DNA of 64,000 nt. Origin: Phorcus lineatus. Lineage: Eukaryota > Mollusca > Gastropoda > Trochida > Trochidae. Made by a program: the position numbers and the translations under genes. Under the pieces are notes generated by a model, which was not told the origin of the DNA, did not search any database, and was given only the letters and a program-made list of their open reading frames with translations. Positions 43,001 through 55,000 of the stretch are shown here, in pieces. The first letter of the stretch is position 1. Each line of letters starts with the position of its first letter. The stretch lies in the NCBI GenBank assembly GCA_921293015.1, contig OV121084.1, positions 24,738,946-24,802,945 on the forward strand, given 5' to 3'.

Positions 43001-46000
43001 TACAATAGAGGTAAGTCATATATTGTGAAAAATGTTCTGTGCAATTTACTAGGATAAATGGCAGGTCCAAGAGGGATGTTCTGACTTTGATAGATAAAAA
43101 GGAACAGAATTGTTAACACTTTTTTTAAATTTCTGGATCCGCCACCAACAGTGACTGAGTTCCTACTGGCGCTTGTACACTACTGTAGCTTAACTTGATG
43201 GTACTTTTAAAATTTTTATGAAGGTTGCAACTTATCCCCCAAGAAGACGCATCACTCATACCGTAAGTGTTGATTCTAGGAAGCAAGGCTTTTATCACCT
43301 AGTTATGCCTTGTGGGGGAATTTGTGTTTGAACTTGAACAGATGATAGCTCTATAACCAATTTTATCATTTCAGAAATTTGCAGTAGTGCACCTGAAGAA
43401 GTTACTGTTGCCTCGTCCCCCGCTGTCTGACACTAACCAGGCAATCAGAGTGCTTCGTTCCACCCTCTCAGGTAGGTAGGAGCTAATAATGGTTTTATGA
43501 ATTATAGTTTTGCATTGCATTGACAACATTCTAAAAGAATTTGTCTTCAGCCAGTGGTCAGTCCCGTTTTATTTTCCTTTGTGTAGATAGTTCGGGTTGA
43601 TTGTCTTCTCAGAAAGGCTCGACATTACTACAGCTAAATTCTATCAAGATCATTAGAGCCTTTAAAAGTATTTATGTTTTGAATACATAATAAAGAAAGA
43701 GGATAATTTCTTACAATTCAGAACACATTTCCAACATATTTCAAAAAACATTTTCTCATAAATTTTGAGTTTTGCAAATTAATAAACTATTGAATGCTCG
43801 AAAAACATGAATTTTACATAGTTTGGATACATATACACCAATGTATGAGTTTATGTCCCTCTGTGTTTCAGTTGACCTCGCCGATACGTGGACGGAGGAG
43901 GTGATAAAGTCCCACCTGTATTTGTACCTGGGTCTACTGCCCTCCAACCACCGACTCATACACGAGTGAGTAGCTCAGGGAATGAGACTTATCTATCATT
44001 GAAATGTAACTCTTCATGGGTTGGCCCAGGATTATTTGGTTAACCTCAAACTGGTGGGAAAAACAGTTTTACTGAACTTGTCTAGATAAAGCACAAGATC
44101 ATGTGAACACTATTTCTTTTCTAGCTTTTCAATTTTAACCAGTGTTCCTTATTGTGCAACCAAACTGAGGAAAACTTAACTTAAAACTTAACTTTAAAAA
44201 AAAGTAAATGTTTAATTACAATATCAAGTAGGTAGTTAATTAAACTTTTGCTGTTATATATATACTTTATTTATTCATGATAATATAAATGAAGTAATAG
44301 GCAGCAAGCTTGTTAGAACTTAATAGCCATCTATTGGCTCTACGAGAAGATATTTGCTCTGTACTCTTTATAGATGTTATTTGGTGCTTGTTGTGTTAAT
44401 CAGTAAAGGCTTGCACTGATGAAATTAGCTAATTTTTCACATTTTACCACTTTGTACTTTTAGACTGGCTAATGTTTATACTGCAACCTCAGCAGACATC
44501 AAGCGAACCATTCTCAGAGTCCTTGAGGTCCCGGTAAGTTGAACAACTGTCACGTTATTAGTCTTGTGGCTTGGACTCTCACAAGAATTGCTGACATTCA
44601 TCAATCATTTAATAAAGGGCAACACACTCTTGTGCTCCATTTTTTATTTTGGCATGAGGTAAAAAAACTTCAGCAAAACTTCTATTTATTTTACAATTGA
44701 AAAAGAGATACACTACACTTATTTAGATTATCCGCAAACGGCAAATAATTGACAATGTCTCTCACGCCCTAGCCCAGAGGCAATGACGATTAATGTCTTC
44801 ATTTCTAAATTTTTTTATTTTTGAGTGAATGTTTGCTATTCTTCAAATTGTGAAATCTTCAGCAACCAAAATGAAAAAATCACATATTAAAGATATATGT
44901 ATTTACTCAGAAATGTACCCTCTTATTCTATCTCTACAAAAAATCTGTGACATAAATTTGGTCATAGCATAACAAGACACTGTAGATCAGTTTAAGTTGT
45001 AGAATTGTGAGCTCCCTGTAGCAGCGTCTGACTATGCCTATAATGCTTGGTGCAGGTGAAGGGGATGGGTATGCAGTCCCCAGAGCTGCTCACCATGGTG
45101 GAGAACTGTCCTAAAGGGGCCGAGACACTCGTCATGAGGGTCATTCACATCCTCACCGACAAAAGTAGGTCATTGTGCGACTCTTCACTGATAGAAGGCT
45201 GTGATAATGGCATTGACAATGGACGAAAAGAAAACGGCCTTACTATTTAATGTGATAGTTGTAATCATTGTGATGATTCTAGTAATATAGTAGTTTTCAG
45301 TTGCAATTGTCAGCCATGATATAAAAATTCCTTCTTGCATTAAAGGTTTCGAGGTTCCACTGCTTAGTGAATGGTGAACCACGAATTACTATCGAGAAAC
45401 TGTAGCACTTGCTTAAACAATGACAACCTTGTCAACAATCAACAGTTTATGATTGTTCAGGTGACTCGCTTTTGGAAATGTTATCAATTGCTAGGGATTT
45501 AAAGCAGGCAAACCTTGCCTGTTGTGGGATACTATCTCATCATATATTTCAAAAACAAAAGAAAAGAAATTCTAGTCTTCTAGTCTTCTCTAGAATGTAA
45601 CAAGTGAATGTCACCTTCACAGCTCTGCCCTCCCCGGAGCTGGTGGAGAGGATCCGAGACCTGTACCAGAAGCGAGTCCCGGATGTCCGCTTCCTCATCC
45701 CAGTCCTCACCGGACTCACCAAGGTAGGGATCTACAATCTAGTTTGAAGTCAGTTGAACAGAGAGGATCGTGTAAGTCTGAATAAGTTTTCGGAGAATTG
45801 CTACATAGTGGAACAGAAATCATATTCTTTTTCAGGAAGGGATCCTCCTTGGGGTACTACTGCATAAAATCTGTATATTTTTGCTACATGACAGGTTGTG
45901 ACTATTTTTTCAATAAAAAATATAAAAAAAACCACTCAAAACGTGTTTTTGTACTTTCCACCACCCTAACAGGGCCCCTTCCCTGGCGATAACTGGTCCG

Positions 46001-49000
46001 CCAGGGCCGGTAACTCCATTAGCAAACCACTTATCAATCTGTCATTGAAGAGGAAAGACGTGTTCTCTAACCTTCACAAGTTGCTAAGTTTCTCTAAGAA
46101 ATAAGGACAATGGAAAAAGGTTCAAATGTATGGTAACCTTTATTGCTAAACGTAGTTTAGAATAGGTTCGCATTATCGCATTCCATCGCGTTGTGACTTA
46201 GGCTTTTCCCAAGCAGTTCGGGCCACGTGCTTCGTCTTTGCGCGGGAAAAGAGACAAACATGGCTGATTCTCGAAGATTGTTTTTCCCGACTAGGTGGAA
46301 AATAGATATCTTTCGTTTGGAATCAGTCGTTGTTTGGCACTTGATGTTATTATTATTATTATGTATTAATAAGCATCTTTTACGTCGATGGCGATTGTTT
46401 TCACCTGGTTTTTAACTTGATGAAAACTTCCGTTAATCGGTGGGCAAGCCATGTTGTGTACATGCTTTTTTTGTTTCAGGCTGTGATTGTAGTGCTTGCT
46501 TTTGGATGCTTCTCACTATTATATCGCGGCCGTCATGTTCTCTATAGTTTTATATATACATTTATATATTAACTTAGATTACACTTGCACTTCCCCTTCC
46601 CCCTTTAGTTCTTTCAACTGTTTCTTTTATGTTTGGCTTACAGTCATTCAAGAAATGCGTTGATTGCGGGGTCAATATCCCCCAGGCGGACGGCCATGAG
46701 GCCTGTTTGCCGTGTCTGGTGACCAGGGGTCACGTGGACAGCGACTGCTCTCTTTGTAACGGGTTCTGCGCCAAGACAAAGAAGAAGAGGCAGGTTGATA
46801 CGATCTTCTACAAGGGGATGTTGGAGGCGGGGCAGGAGCTGAGAGGACTGACCCCCCCGTCTAAGTCAGGTGGCACTGCTCGCCCTCCCGTATGAGCTGG
46901 GTCAAACCCTGTTCCCGGGATCGGCGACAGTGATCAAAGACTTCGCGGAACGGCTAGATAGGGCCAAAGCTGCCAAAGGCGGCTCTGGTTCTGCCGGGAA
47001 GCGCAAGTCCCCCCTGGAAGGCCTCCCGCAGGGACCGCCGCCCAAAGTCGGAACTTGGTGGCTGGGATCCGTTGCCTCTGTCCAGAATTACCAGTAGGGG
47101 GCAGACTCTCCCACTTCCTGTCAGACTGGGAGAGGGTCACGTCAAATCCCTGGGCCCTGTCCACACTCAGGGACGGACATTTGCCTCTTTGGAAGCATGG
47201 GCCACCTTCGTTTACCGGAGTGAGGCGCACCCCGGTGCCATCCTCCCCGGAGAAGGCGAAAGTCCTCAGCCGAAGTCGCAGCTCTGCTCGACAAGGCGGC
47301 CATAGAGGCGGTCCCGAGGGGCCAGGAAGAGACCGGTCGCACAAGAGATGGAACTGCCACGCCTCCTGGAGGAGAGCTGGAGACACCGTTCCCCCCTGCT
47401 TTGCGATATAAGTCATGGCAGTCTGGTTGTCCATCTCCAGACGCACCACCCGACCTCTTACCAAGTGGAGGAGTTGGTCGAATACCTTCCTCACCGCCCT
47501 CAGTTCCAGCACATTGATGTGCTCTTTGGACTCGTCCGGAGACCACAGGCCCGAAGCTGAGTGATCCCCCAGGGCTCCCCCCCAACCTGAGAGGGAAGCG
47601 TCTGTCTGAACTGTTACCTCGGGCATCGGCGTCACCAAAGGTAGACCCCTGGCGAGGTTGTCCTCCTTCAGCCACCATTCCAGATGAGTGGAAAGCCACT
47701 CCGGAATGGCCACTGATTCCTCTAGACTCCCGGCATGCGACCATCGTCCCGCTAAAGCCTGCTGGACTGGTCTCATCCTCAACCGAGCTCTCCAAACCAC
47801 GTCCACCGTCGCCGCCATATTCCCCAGCAAACGAAGCCATGTCCATGCGGAGTGTGCGGGTGACAGCAAGAACTGCTGCGTGGTCTGAATTACCTTGGTC
47901 ACTCGGGCGGGGGCTAGTGCAACTAGTCCCCTCGCCGTATCGAACTGAGCCCCCAGGAACACTAAGTCCTGGGTGGGAGTGAGGTCTGACTTTTTCATGT
48001 TTATGATCCAATCCAGCCTGAGCAGAATGTCTAAAATCTCCTGGGTGGCCTCCTGATTCCCCACTTGCGACAGGGCCCTGATTAACCAATCGTCCAGGTA
48101 CGGGTGACAGCACCTGCCCTTGGACCTGGCCACCTGCGCAGGAATCAGCGTCAGTTTGGTGAACACCCTTGGCCCCGTTGAGATGCCGAAGTGGAGCACA
48201 CGAAACTGGTAGCACACCCCGTCGAAGGCAAACCTTAGGTATTGCTTGAACTGGGGGTGCATTGGGACATGGAGGTATGCATCTTTGAGGTCGATTGACG
48301 ACAGCCAATCTCCCAGCTCTACCGATGCTATCACCGACCTCAGAGTTTCCATCTTGAACGATGTACCTTCCGGGAGTGGACAACGTCCGAGCGGACGCCT
48401 TGTCCCGGCGCATCCTTGCACCGCACGAATGGATGCTCCACCGGGAGATATTCGGGCTTATCTCCCAGTTGTACGGGTCGTTCCAGGTGGATCTGTTTGT
48501 GTCCGGAGTGACGAATCAGACACCGGTGTTCTGCTCCAGGATACCAGACCCAAACGCTCTGGCGTCAGTCGCCTTCGCGATAGACTGGACCGGCAGGGTG
48601 CTATGGGCGTTCCCGCCAATGCCTCTGATTCCCAGGGTTCTGTCGCAGGTAGGCAAGCAGCCTCCACAGCTGTTGGTCCTCATGACACCGCTGTGGACGG
48701 CCCAGAGTTGGTTTCCATCAGTACTCGGATATCTGGTTCAGCCTCCTGTACTGTTACCATGTCTGCCAGATCTGCTGACGCAGGAAGGGGCGCCACACCC
48801 GAATCCCAGGATTCAGTGGGTGGCCTGGCCTCTGTCCGGAATCGCCTCCAGGAGAGCGGTATTCCTGCACGAGTTGCAGACACAATACTGGCTTCGAGGA
48901 GGGATTCAACGAACATTCAGTACAAAGATAGATGGGCCTGTTATGCGCGCTGGTGTGGCAGTTGAGGGATTCTTGATCCCTTTTCTGCGGGCCTAGTGAC

Positions 49001-52000
49001 GGTATTGGAGTTTCTTCAGTCCCGGCTGGATGCAGGTTTAGCAGCCTCTACGGTTAGGGGGTACTCTACCGCTATTTCGGCATTTCATGTACCGGTGGAT
49101 GGCGCCCTCTTAGGGGGTCATCCGATGGTCCAGCGCTTCCTAGCAGGTGTGGACAGGATTAGACCGCCTATTCGGCGAGTTAGTCCTACTTGGGAGTTAG
49201 CACATGTACTGGACTGGCTGTCAGGGCCGTCGTTCAGGGACCCTAGTGCTGTTTCCTTGCAGTTGTTGACGTGGAAGGCGGCCTTTTTAGTGGCGGTCAC
49301 GTCGGGCAGGCGGGTAGGATCCCGAGCTGACTGTCTTTCACAGAGACAGAGTCAGCATTAGACTGCCAGACTCGTACCGGCCAAAGGTTGATCATTCCTT
49401 CCATGTCTCGGCCCCGATAGAGCTGCCAGCAATGATGCAGCCAGCAGTCTCAGGGGTGAGGTCGGCGCAACCCCACATCTTAGATGTGCGTCGCACCCTC
49501 AAGTTATACATTAAAAGAACTAAGGAAATCCGTAAGGATAAACAGCTGTTCTGTTGCTACGGTGGAAATAAGTCCGGCCTACCGGCCTCAAAGCAGACCA
49601 TCTCAAGATGGATTGTTTCGGCTATTTATCTGGGGTACGTCCACAAGGGACTGCAGCCCCCAGAGGGATTGAATTCCCCTTCGGTTAGAGCGGTGGCAAC
49701 ATCGAAGGCTTACGCGGCGGCTCTGCCCATTGAAGAGATCTGCTCCGCCGCCATTTGGAGCCGGCCTAGCACGTTCGTAAGACATTACCAGTTAGACAAG
49801 CACTCAAGTGAGCGTGCTCGGTTTGGCAAGTCGGTTCTTTCCAGTGGGCAGAGTCGTGCACCCTCTAGCTGAGCGGGCTTTCGGGTGATGTTTTTACGGT
49901 GGTGGTTGTACTAACGTACTAACTTCTAACAGTGAAATGCACATTATGGGCCCTGGCGGCAGACACCCGAAGGGTGTTGTCTGCAGGGATAATGATTGTT
50001 TTAAAGAAGTCCCCTAGTACCTTCTTTCAAAAAGAGGAGGGGGGGGGGGGGGGGCGTTTTGGCTAAATGTCGTAAGCAGGCTTGTTTAGCCAGTATGAGT
50101 AGGTCCCAGGGTCAGTGCCTGGAGGTAGTCCCGGCGGCAGATTTACCCATGAGATCTGGTAAGTGTAATTTACGCTTTTTCCCTTGTATAGGGGTTAGTT
50201 GAGCTGCAGACAGAAGACCACTACCATGAAATTGTCTCTGGGAGTCTCTTTTTATGCAGTAGTACCCCAAGGAGGATCCCTTCCTGAAAAAGAATCGAAC
50301 AAACCTGCAGAGGTTTCTGATTCTTTGAAGGGGATCCTCCTTGGGGTAAGGCCACCCACCTCCCCTTATTCTGTCTGGTTATGCTAGATTGATAAGTGGT
50401 TTGCTAATGGAGTTACCGGCCCTGGCGGACCAGTTATCGCCAGGGAAGGGGCCCTGTTAGGGTGGTGGAAAGTACAAAAACACGTTTTGAGTGGTTTTTT
50501 GTATATTTTTTATTGAAAAAATAGTCACAACCTGTCATGTAGCAAAAATATACAGATTTTATGCAGTAGTACCCCAAGGAGGATCCCCTTCAAAGAATCA
50601 GAAACCTCTGCAGGTTTGTTCGAATTTTTTATACTGACCCCACTTCTGGGATGCAGTATAAGAAGTGGGGTAAGTATTTTAGATATCTAACATATTTAGA
50701 TTTTAATAATTTTGAGAATACAACATATATATGGTAATATATTTCAATATGTAGGAAGTTGATGAGATCTCTCAACATGATATGAAAAGGCTCTTATTAT
50801 GTAAGGAAGATCTTTCTTGACAGATGCATGTTATGAATTACAGAAAGAGGTTATCGGTGCGCTGCCCAAGTTGATCAAACTGAACCCAATGGTGGTGAAG
50901 GAGGTGTTCCACAGACTGATGGGCGGATATGGTACGTGTTGGCTCGATTTGTTGTCTGTGAATACCATTTATCAATCCTTCAGTGGACTTCCACAACAGT
51001 TGAGGAACGTTATCTCTAATAACACCTTCAGAAAAGCTGATAATACCCATCTATTCCAGCAAACAATCACAAACTAGACTGAAGTCTATATTTGTGCAAA
51101 GCGCCTTAGATTAGAGTCTGATTAACAACAAAGTTTGTATAAAGTTGTGATTTTTATGGCATTAATATTGTCTTAGAAGTGCTCAACGGGAACATAAAAA
51201 AATGTTGTAAATTCAACTCCGATGTCAAGTTTGAGTGTCTTTTGTTGAATCAAGGAAATGACTGCCCAATACACATAGCTGAAAATAATGTCAAAAGAGA
51301 CACTTCTAAGACACTCCTTTACTGTTTGAGGACTGATGTCGTAGAGGTGCTGTTTATAGAACAGTGTCATGCCAGGGCAGTTGTCTTATGATGTATAGCA
51401 TTAATGCACAAATCTGCACATGGCTTAGGATTTACTGTTATTTCCGACTAAAAAAGGAATGGTTAGACATATTAATATATTCTAATCTAATATTCTGTTG
51501 GGCCTATATGTGGACATTTGTATCAATCTTGTTCTGAAATTTTGTATTGTAGTTACTCTTGTATGAATATGTTAAACTATTCAATATTCTGTATGACAGG
51601 AGACAGCACAGCGAGCTACACGTCCCCACTGACTCCCGCGGAGCTGCTAGTGGCCCTACATAACATCGACCCTGTCAAGTGTGACATGAAGACTATCATC
51701 AAGGGTATGCTAAGTGCTTTTGTGTTTTCAGTGTAATTAAGTTTGTAGAAAATTAATTGTAATTCAGCTTTTGGCCTCAGTATGCTTTATATAAGAATAG
51801 AAGGTTGAAACTTTATGTCCTTAACCTTTTGGCCTGCAGGTCTGTTTTTGATATCCTTAGTTGCTGGTGACCAAGACTGATGTATTTCTGTTGTCAATGA
51901 GAAATGATTTCTGTAAAAAAAAATTTAGGCTTAAAGTTAAGTTTGATTAGAGAAGAGTTCTAAATATATATATATTTATGTAAGTAAAATGTTTTTTAAA

Positions 52001-55000
52001 AATTACATTCCCTTCTAGCGGCGAACCTGTGCTTCAGTGAGAAGGCAATCTACACACAGGAAGTGCTGGCCATTGTCATGCAGCAGTTAATGGAGCAGAC
52101 TCCTCTCCCCACCTTGCTGATGCGTACAGTGCTGCAGAGTTTGTCTATGTATCCCAGACTCCTCGGCTTCGTCATGAACATCCTCAATCGGCTCATTACA
52201 AAACAGGTGCAGTTTATGTTTGAAACTTTAAAAACTTTATCAATGTTTTGTGATTTTAAATCAAAATATCTAATTTCATGAATTAGCCAATTTTGAGTTG
52301 TCTTTATCCTTGCAGTCAAGTAGATAGAATTAACAGTTAGAGATATCTGCAATATACTTGAGAACTCCCTGTCCAGTGACTATATTGTCATTCATAATCC
52401 GACATTTCTCTTGTACAGGTATGGAAGCAGAAGAAGGTTTGGGAGGGGTTCGTCAAGTGCTGTCAGCGCACCAAGCCCCAGTCCTACCAGGTTTTGCTTC
52501 AGCTCCCAGCATCCCAACTCAAGAACGCCTTCGAGATCTGCCCCGACCTCCGCGAACCTCTCCTATGCCATGTCAAGGCCTTTACCTCCCACCAGGTCAG
52601 AGTTCATCTCGCATATTTTACTCAATGTTTTATTGTGGAGAAAAGGAGTTTTGCTCAGAGTAACACAGCACATGGGTAATAGTGAGGATAAATATGTTTA
52701 GTATTTTTCTTCATCAAATGAACCCTGCAGTGTTCATGATAAAAAGTTATACGTTACAGAAAGATAAAGGTGTTTTGCTTACCTTTTAAATATTGAAAAT
52801 TACAGTAAATTAACCTGCTACCTGATGGTCAAATTATGTATTAGTATATATGTTTTACCTGTGGCCGAGATATTATTCATGTAAATGAGCCAATCTGAAT
52901 GGTCTTGTATTTAGTAATAAAGAGCTTAAAGATAAAACAAATGAAAACTTATTTAATTTACTATAGACAAAGTGTAAAATAGTAGCAGAAGATGATATTA
53001 CAGAAACAATATAGCTTTTTTCAAAATCTTTGTATTGCTACATTCTTTTGATTTCATAGCTAGGAATTCCGAGTAAATGAATATTCTACTTCCTTTACAG
53101 CAAGCCCACATTCCGAAGGCCATAATGACTGTTCTCGAGACAGACCCGGCAGAGGAACTGAGGAAAGTGGAGGCCGCTCGTCTGGAGGCAGAGAGGAAAG
53201 CAAAGGAGAAAGAAGACGAGGAAAGATTCCAAAAGTTAGAGGCGGAGAGAATAGCTCGGGAGACAGCAGAAAAGGAGAGACAAGAGAACTTAAAAGCTCA
53301 GCGAGAGGAAAGAGAGAAGGCAAAGAAAGAAAAGGAGAAATTAGAAGCCGAGAAGAAGGAGAAGGAATTGAAAGAGAAGGAAAAGTTAGAGGCTGAAAAG
53401 AAAGAGAAGGAAAGAAAGGAAAAAGAAAAAATAGATGCTGATAAAAAAGAGAAAGAAAGGTTAGATGCCGAGAAGGAGAAAGAAAAAGATGATCGGTTAG
53501 AAGCAGAAAGGAAGGAGAAGGAGATGAAGGAAGAGGCAGCAAGAATCAAGGAGGCAGAGGAGAAAATACAGAAAGAAAGAGAAAAGGAGGCACAGGAAAA
53601 GGCTGAATTGAAGCTGAAGGAAGAATTGGAAAATGAGAAGCGGGAGAGTGAAAAGCTTGAAAAAGACAGACTTGACAAAGAGAGACTAGAGAAAGAAACA
53701 GTGGAAAAGGAGGAAAAACAGAAAGAAGAGAAGATGAAAGAAGCGGTTACAAAGGAGACGAGTGAGAGTGAAGAAAGAGAAGGAATGGAGGAGATGGAAG
53801 TGATTGATGAAGTGGGACTGACGGACGAAGCCCCAGAACCAAGATCTGAGGTGTGTGTTAACTTTTACCAGGGAGGTGGAACATAACATTCCCCAGCAGT
53901 AATGATTGTTATTGTAATTTTGTGATGTAATCATTAGACTGGTAAGTATTCTTATTCAGGATATCAATGGCATGCCTCCCATATTGGTGGCCAAACTACA
54001 TAAATCACAGTTAAGTTGGGCCTGCAATTTGAGTTTAAGTGCCAGTTAAAAGTAAGGTGGCACTGTTGCAGTAGATGATTTTATAGCTTTTGGCTTATCT
54101 GCACAATCAATAAAGAACAATGTTATCCAAAGAGATCCCAAGATTAGATAATGAATTCAAAACCTAATCCTTAGCTCTCCTTACAACTTCACTCCTTTCA
54201 CTTTTTAATAAAATTGTATTCCTTGCATTAAACACTGGTGAGTAAAAGCTCGTTTTGTTGGATTTTAAGAAATGGGTTAGCACCATGTGATTGAAAAGGT
54301 CAAAGGTTAAGAAAAATGAAATATTGTTAATGTAATGAAAGTAACCTTAAACAATTTACACTTATTAATGGCACTTTGATTTTTACCTTTTGCTACAACT
54401 TTGACTTAATTTAACCAACCAGTTTAAACTTGTATAAGCACAGAGGATTATAGTATATATTCGGTGCTTGTAGTAGAGTGAATGTTTTTATTGATGAATT
54501 GCACCAACCCCTTTCCTCATTCATTTGTAAACCAAACCCGGTCTCCCAACCATTGAAAACTCCTAGATCTAGAACTGTTGTATATCTATAAGATAGTAAA
54601 CATCTGCCTATGTGTTTCTACAGTTGTCTGAGGAAGGTGTAAGCACAGAGACAGAAGCAATGGAGACTGCAGAGAGTTCTTTCGGAGACACTTCTGTGGA
54701 AACTGCAGCAGAAGCTGAAGAGGAGCCAGCAGCCCAGGACGAGGAGGAGGAGGAGGCAATGGAAGAGTCTGGGGAGCAGGTGGGTGTCTCCTTCTTACAC
54801 GTCGGGTCCTCATCATGAGCTTTCAGGACCTCTGGGCTATCTTAGTACTTGTCTGTGGTTTTGGAATCATGTGATCCTCTTGGTTGAGTTGAGACTCTGT
54901 GTCTTGTTGTGGCAGCTCATATGTTAAAGTCATAGTCTCATTTTTGTAAGGCAACTAAACTGAACAAATTATTCTTCACGAACAAAATCTGATCACTAAC

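Follow-up and report, generated by a model that had tools for sequence, protein, structure and literature searches.

Several kinds of retroelement bear comparison with the element described here. DIRS1-like elements are known from molluscs, among them AcaDIRS and LgDIRS; according to the available part of PMC3266345, four of five mollusc elements have an ATT left end and an AAT circular junction, and the method used there demands co-oriented domains. The same part of that paper describes the PAT-group (such as kangaroo), which has split direct repeats and parts of the coding region on opposite strands; it is the recombinase region that can be inverted there. Twin-primed L1 insertions are also retroelement copies with an inverted piece, which the available part of PMC2837659 ascribes to a copying variant.

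The family to which our element belongs resembles the mollusc DIRS1-like elements of PMC3266345 (as far as the available part describes them) in several respects: its terminal repeats are inverted, it has an internal complementary region, it begins with ATT and its circular junction is AAT, no target-site duplication is visible, and it encodes gag, reverse transcriptase (RT), RNase H and recombinase. The copy studied here differs from them in that its RT/RNase H is reversed, its gag is largely deleted and its right end is AAT. Like PAT-group elements, it carries parts of its coding region on opposite strands, but the inverted part is RT/RNase H, the inversion concerns a single copy, and the terminal repeats are inverted. 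Unlike in a twin-primed L1, the inverted piece lies in the interior of an element that has both of its ends. Twin priming is a form of target-primed reverse transcription, a process that DIRS elements are not known to use. Among the literature titles and abstract openings that we screened, none announces an inversion inside a DIRS element, which does not prove that none is in print.

Genomic context and structure of the element

The window, a stretch of 64,000 nucleotides of Phorcus lineatus DNA (OV121084.1: 24738946-24802945), comes from a genome of 958 Mb in 74 contigs. The element is surrounded by symplekin-like exons (window 45056-52206) and lies on the same strand as the gene. Translated pieces upstream of it match PDB symplekin residues 803-837 and 840-871, and pieces downstream match residues 873-898 and 936-998, with the 840-871 and 873-898 matches in the exons immediately before and after the element. 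Because symplekin matches occur on both sides, the element is intronic. A Symplekin_C match is found farther downstream. Also downstream of these exons is an open frame of 269 aa (window 53077-53886) that is rich in lysine and glutamate and had no match in a Pfam search at E 1.

Table 1. Features of the DIRS1-like element and its inverted block (window positions).
Feature	Position	Strand	Evidence or remarks
DIRS1-like element, whole, including terminal trinucleotides	45824..50625	+	End motifs, inverted repeats; in intron of symplekin-like gene
Left inverted terminal repeat	45824..46045		207-nt pair 45839-46045 / 50381-50587, 99%
Left arm: gag remnant and pol lead-in; deletions after 46873 and 47061	46046..47334	+	Sister-copy alignment
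Left junction of the inversion, with microhomology of 5 bp; lacks 94 bp of L009 order	47332..47336		Sole end-to-end probe match
Inverted block: RT and RNase H core	47335..48363	-	RVT_1 E 3.5e-15; collinear in sister copies
Right inversion junction, 2-bp microhomology, adjoining right arm; 26 bp of L009 order absent	48362..48363		Sole end-to-end probe match
Right arm: RNase H tail, methyltransferase-like region, tyrosine recombinase; frame-broken here	48364..50249	+	Weak Dam, L016 integrase matches
Internal complementary region	50250..50348		Pairs with the outer end of each terminal repeat
Right inverted terminal repeat with extension	50381..50625		Inverted-repeat pairing, end motifs

The features of the element are listed in Table 1. 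As in DIRS1-like elements, the terminal repeats are inverted (99% complementary), and both outer ends are matched by an internal complementary region towards the 3' end. Split direct repeats of the PAT type were not found: the element ends are inverted repeats, and the single internal direct pair of at least 25 nt (31 nt) has one member in the internal complementary region and the other in the right repeat. The left-end, right-end and internal complementary motifs were each present in 19 of the 20 other copies fetched with 4-kb flanks, the internal complementary motif being absent from L018. The left anchor was found in 19 other copies; ATT precedes it in 17 of these (the exceptions are L010 and L024) and in the window, while the right anchor is followed by AAT in the window and by A-any-T in all 19 of the others that have it. 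The internal complementary region also contains AAT. No longer target-site duplication was seen in 14 flanking bases, and the terminal trinucleotide corresponds to the circular junction.

RT and RNase H are represented by matches in a 507-aa minus-strand frame (46934-48457) to RVT_1, above its cut-off, and to RT_RNaseH, which is weak (E 0.012) and below its cut-off. The closest species-named relatives of the RT frame are from Haliotis (abalone). A tyrosine recombinase is recognizable in the collinear copy L016, where the frame matches a phrog_1 integrase (E 1.3e-4) and no Pfam family; in domain searches, the window's own recombinase-region pieces had no recombinase match. Matches of the methyltransferase-like region to Dam are weak in both the window (E 0.0089) and L016 (E 0.0066), and under the curated cut-off. 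The domains are not co-oriented in the window copy. Because the block and its flanks are co-oriented in all 39 other copies fetched, the family qualifies as DIRS1-like, with the window copy as a rearranged member.

Inversion of the RT/RNase H block

A first-pass annotation had noticed that the RT/RNase H core lies on the minus strand between plus-strand parts of the element. The 507-aa frame, its RVT_1 match and the alignment with sister copies all bear this out: a pol lead-in precedes the block on the plus strand, and the RNase H tail and recombinase region follow it. When the parts of the element were compared one by one with the fetched copies, only 47335-48363 proved to be reversed. The annotated interval (47335..48371) is thus correct at its start, but its last 8 bases are part of the plus-strand right arm. 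The lead-in ending in EETG, which had been taken as Gag-like, looks instead like the beginning of the pol frame, as the matching stretch in the relatives P0001-P0003 shares one open frame with RT. The two halves of the coding sequence had also been said to fit each other at both junctions. The order does switch at both ends, but 94 bp on the left and 26 bp on the right are absent.

The reversed RT block is free of stop codons, as is the block in 35 of the 37 other aligned copies, and an uninterrupted frame fits a recent event. With the block antisense, the window copy would be expected to make no pol protein of its own.

Arrangement of the block in other copies

A whole-genome search with 47335-48371, in which the best 40 of 311 candidates were scored, gave 41 rows that represent the window and 39 other copies, one of them split in two. 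All 39 were fetched, 20 with 4-kb flanks and 19 with 0.5-kb flanks, and the block was collinear with its flanks in every one (20/20 and 19/19). This is visible through both flanks in 38 copies and through the right flank only in L030. The collinear copies include L009-L012, which have approximately 98% identity to the window over the block. The first-pass annotation had proposed looking for further copies with the inverted order, and none recurred among these 39 from the best 40 of 311 candidates. An inner inversion of at least 60 bp was likewise absent from the 18 other copies that were mapped.

The junctions themselves were used as probes. Among the best 40 of 389 candidates, a 200-bp left-junction probe matched end to end in the window only; the 39 other matches were to its block half (35) or its left-arm half (4). 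Similarly, among the best 40 of 379 candidates, the right-junction probe matched end to end in the window only, with 34 of the other 39 matches to the right-arm half and five to the block half. Pairing of half-matches revealed four more collinear copies (C1 5.64 Mb, C19 11.81 Mb, C29 29.59 Mb and C41 0.61 Mb). As far as tested, the inversion appears private to the window copy; its absence elsewhere is likely rather than proven, because each search scored the best 40 candidates.

We also considered whether the block was derived from another subfamily. This was not supported, as the copies nearest to the block (L009-L012) are also nearest to the left arm piece 46046-46873. The three copies nearest to the right arm are L012, L010 and L009, with L011 left out because it is deleted there.

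Breakpoints

Relative to L009, 94 bp are absent at the left junction; L015 gives the same value and L010, which is itself shortened there, gives 76 bp. At the right junction, 26 bp are absent relative to each of these three copies. The inversion is non-conservative, with 94 + 26 = 120 bp lost, and these edge losses exclude a clean, reversible flip. The left junction has a microhomology of 5 bp (ACCGG) common to both sources and the right junction one of 2 bp. In a simulation of random inverted joins in L012 (n=200,000), 0.54% reached 5 bp and 16% reached 2 bp.

In L009, no long inverted repeat, nor one of recombination-site length, was found at the block edges. Three short inverted pairs are located around the block in this copy, one of which (12 nt, 92%; L009:3862-3873 and L009:5085-5096) lies within approximately 50 bp outside both breakpoints. 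This pair, which was examined post hoc, was equalled or exceeded in 0.8%, 1.2% and 3.4% of random 50-, 60- and 100-bp window pairs, respectively, fractions that are slightly too low as pairs less than 300 bp apart were skipped yet kept in the denominator. Such a repeat could draw both breakpoints together.

Other damage and age of the copy

Compared with L012, 1315 bp are absent from the window copy after 46873 and another 183 bp after 47061. The joins of these deletions have 1 bp in common by eye, with an imperfect overlap of up to 5 bp for the second, and neither junction is present in any of the 20 other copies with 4-kb flanks. The inversion and these two larger deletions all fall within approximately 1.5 kb, while a private 20-bp loss near 49316 is outside this cluster. 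Deletions of at least 15 bp were found in 7 of the 18 other mapped copies, nine in total: eight with 0-4 bp overlap and one with 5 extra bases. This map counts deletions that break the alignment, so that smaller or bridged ones escape; in addition, L018 is short at the reference 3' end and L026 is short by 26 bases at the 5' end.

The terminal repeats of the window copy have 1 mismatch in 202 positions, compared with 0-4 mismatches (and 0-44 gap positions) in the 19 other copies measured, so that it is about as young as its sisters. Following alignment with 37 of the 39 other copies, 11 private substitutions were counted in the block (1029 bp) and 17 elsewhere (3397 bp), a weak indication at best that the block is more mutated than its flanks. 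Three of these 28 substitutions are within 15 bp of the four junctions, compared with 0.76 expected (p 0.04). This enrichment is weak, with p values of 0.06, 0.36 and 0.38 at distances of 30, 60 and 100 bp, respectively.

Origin of the inversion

The first-pass annotation had offered a real internal inversion as one option, and the collinear same-genome relatives and the detection of both junctions in the window only argue for it. We interpret the window copy as a young, defective DIRS1-like copy whose block was inverted once and imprecisely, most likely by polymerase template switching, an account in which our confidence is about evenly balanced. The copying polymerase may have been the element's own reverse transcriptase acting on cDNA, or a host polymerase acting on a DNA form. 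It would have jumped to the complementary strand at the 5-bp microhomology, copied approximately 1.03 kb backwards and jumped back at the 2-bp microhomology, leaving out 94 bp and 26 bp; similar jumps would explain the two neighbouring deletions. Template switching during copying, presumably before integration, is favoured because the young copy has an inversion and two deletions packed into 1.5 kb, and its nearly identical terminal repeats leave little time for separate later events. Several points weigh against this account: repair of a chromosome break gives the same kind of joins, the 2-bp join and both deletion joins are near chance level, the 20-bp loss near 49316 falls outside the cluster, and the private substitutions are no more than weakly enriched at the junctions. 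Furthermore, the deletions in the window copy may be independent events, since deletions are common in the family.

The replication of DIRS elements is poorly understood. It is quite possible, if somewhat short of an even prospect, that the inversion arose in this process through strand switching between complementary strands, at a cDNA or circular stage. If so, DIRS replication can yield inverted blocks, and DIRS copies in large genomes would be expected to show inversions at a measurable rate, with joins at short microhomologies.

An explanation that is nearly as likely as template switching, and that we likewise hold tentatively, is that the element inserted in the normal order and was later flipped in the chromosome, through two breaks, trimming of the ends and reversed rejoining by microhomology-mediated or non-homologous end joining. 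End losses and short microhomologies are the usual marks of break repair, and both are seen here; 7 of the 18 other mapped copies bear deletions of their own. This would, however, require several separate events, three of them within approximately 1.5 kb, while the terminal repeats of the copy show a single mismatch in 202 positions.

It is improbable that the block was placed backwards during assembly. Such an error could be favoured by the high copy number of the element (311 first-look candidates) and by the run of 16 G that it carries towards its 3' end, but the element, 4.8 kb long, sits inside a 62-Mb contig, the 5- and 2-bp shared joins are far below the size of an assembler overlap, and the block has the 11 substitutions that are absent from the 37 other aligned copies. 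It is still less probable that a subfamily is characterized by the inverted order. An inverted relative could escape detection when the best 40 of 311, 389 and 379 candidates are scored, but a copy with the same junctions should outrank half-matches, and the 39 fetched copies and the four recognized from paired half-matches are all collinear; as a trait of the family, the inverted order is rejected as far as tested. A switchable segment, as had also been suggested, flipped by a site-specific recombinase such as the tyrosine recombinase of the element, is the least credible of these explanations, for although the family encodes a recombinase-like protein, conservative recombination between inverted sites is lossless and 120 bp are gone, the block edges have no long inverted repeats (the sole far-spaced pair is the 12-nt one, 92% and outside the breakpoints) and the second state was seen in none of the 39 other copies tested.

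Whether the inversion arose by template switching or by break repair, the window copy looks like a broken copy rather than a new kind of element, given the normal order of the other copies examined, and it looks ordinary for a decaying retrotransposon copy. It is of slight importance in that its breakpoints are clean and close relatives in the same genome give the normal order base by base. An odd-looking RT frame within its own element should first be compared with sister copies.

Variation within the family

At least two subfamilies can be distinguished: the right arm is approximately 97% identical to that of the window in L009-L012 and approximately 90% identical in most of L013-L028. The RT block is at least 96.5% alike to that of the window in all 20 copies L009-L028. 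Three copies, L018, L019 and L027, are broken by extra insertions of approximately 2.4, 1.2 and 1.4 kb, respectively. The tract of 16 G (window 50039-50054), located before the internal complementary region, differs in length between copies, and a simple pattern picked up a tract of this type in 5 of 20 other copies. The Gag frame of the collinear copy L016 (L016:5456-6832, minus strand) matches Pfam LAP2alpha (E 1.6e-07), which the title of PMC4495291 connects with transposable elements.
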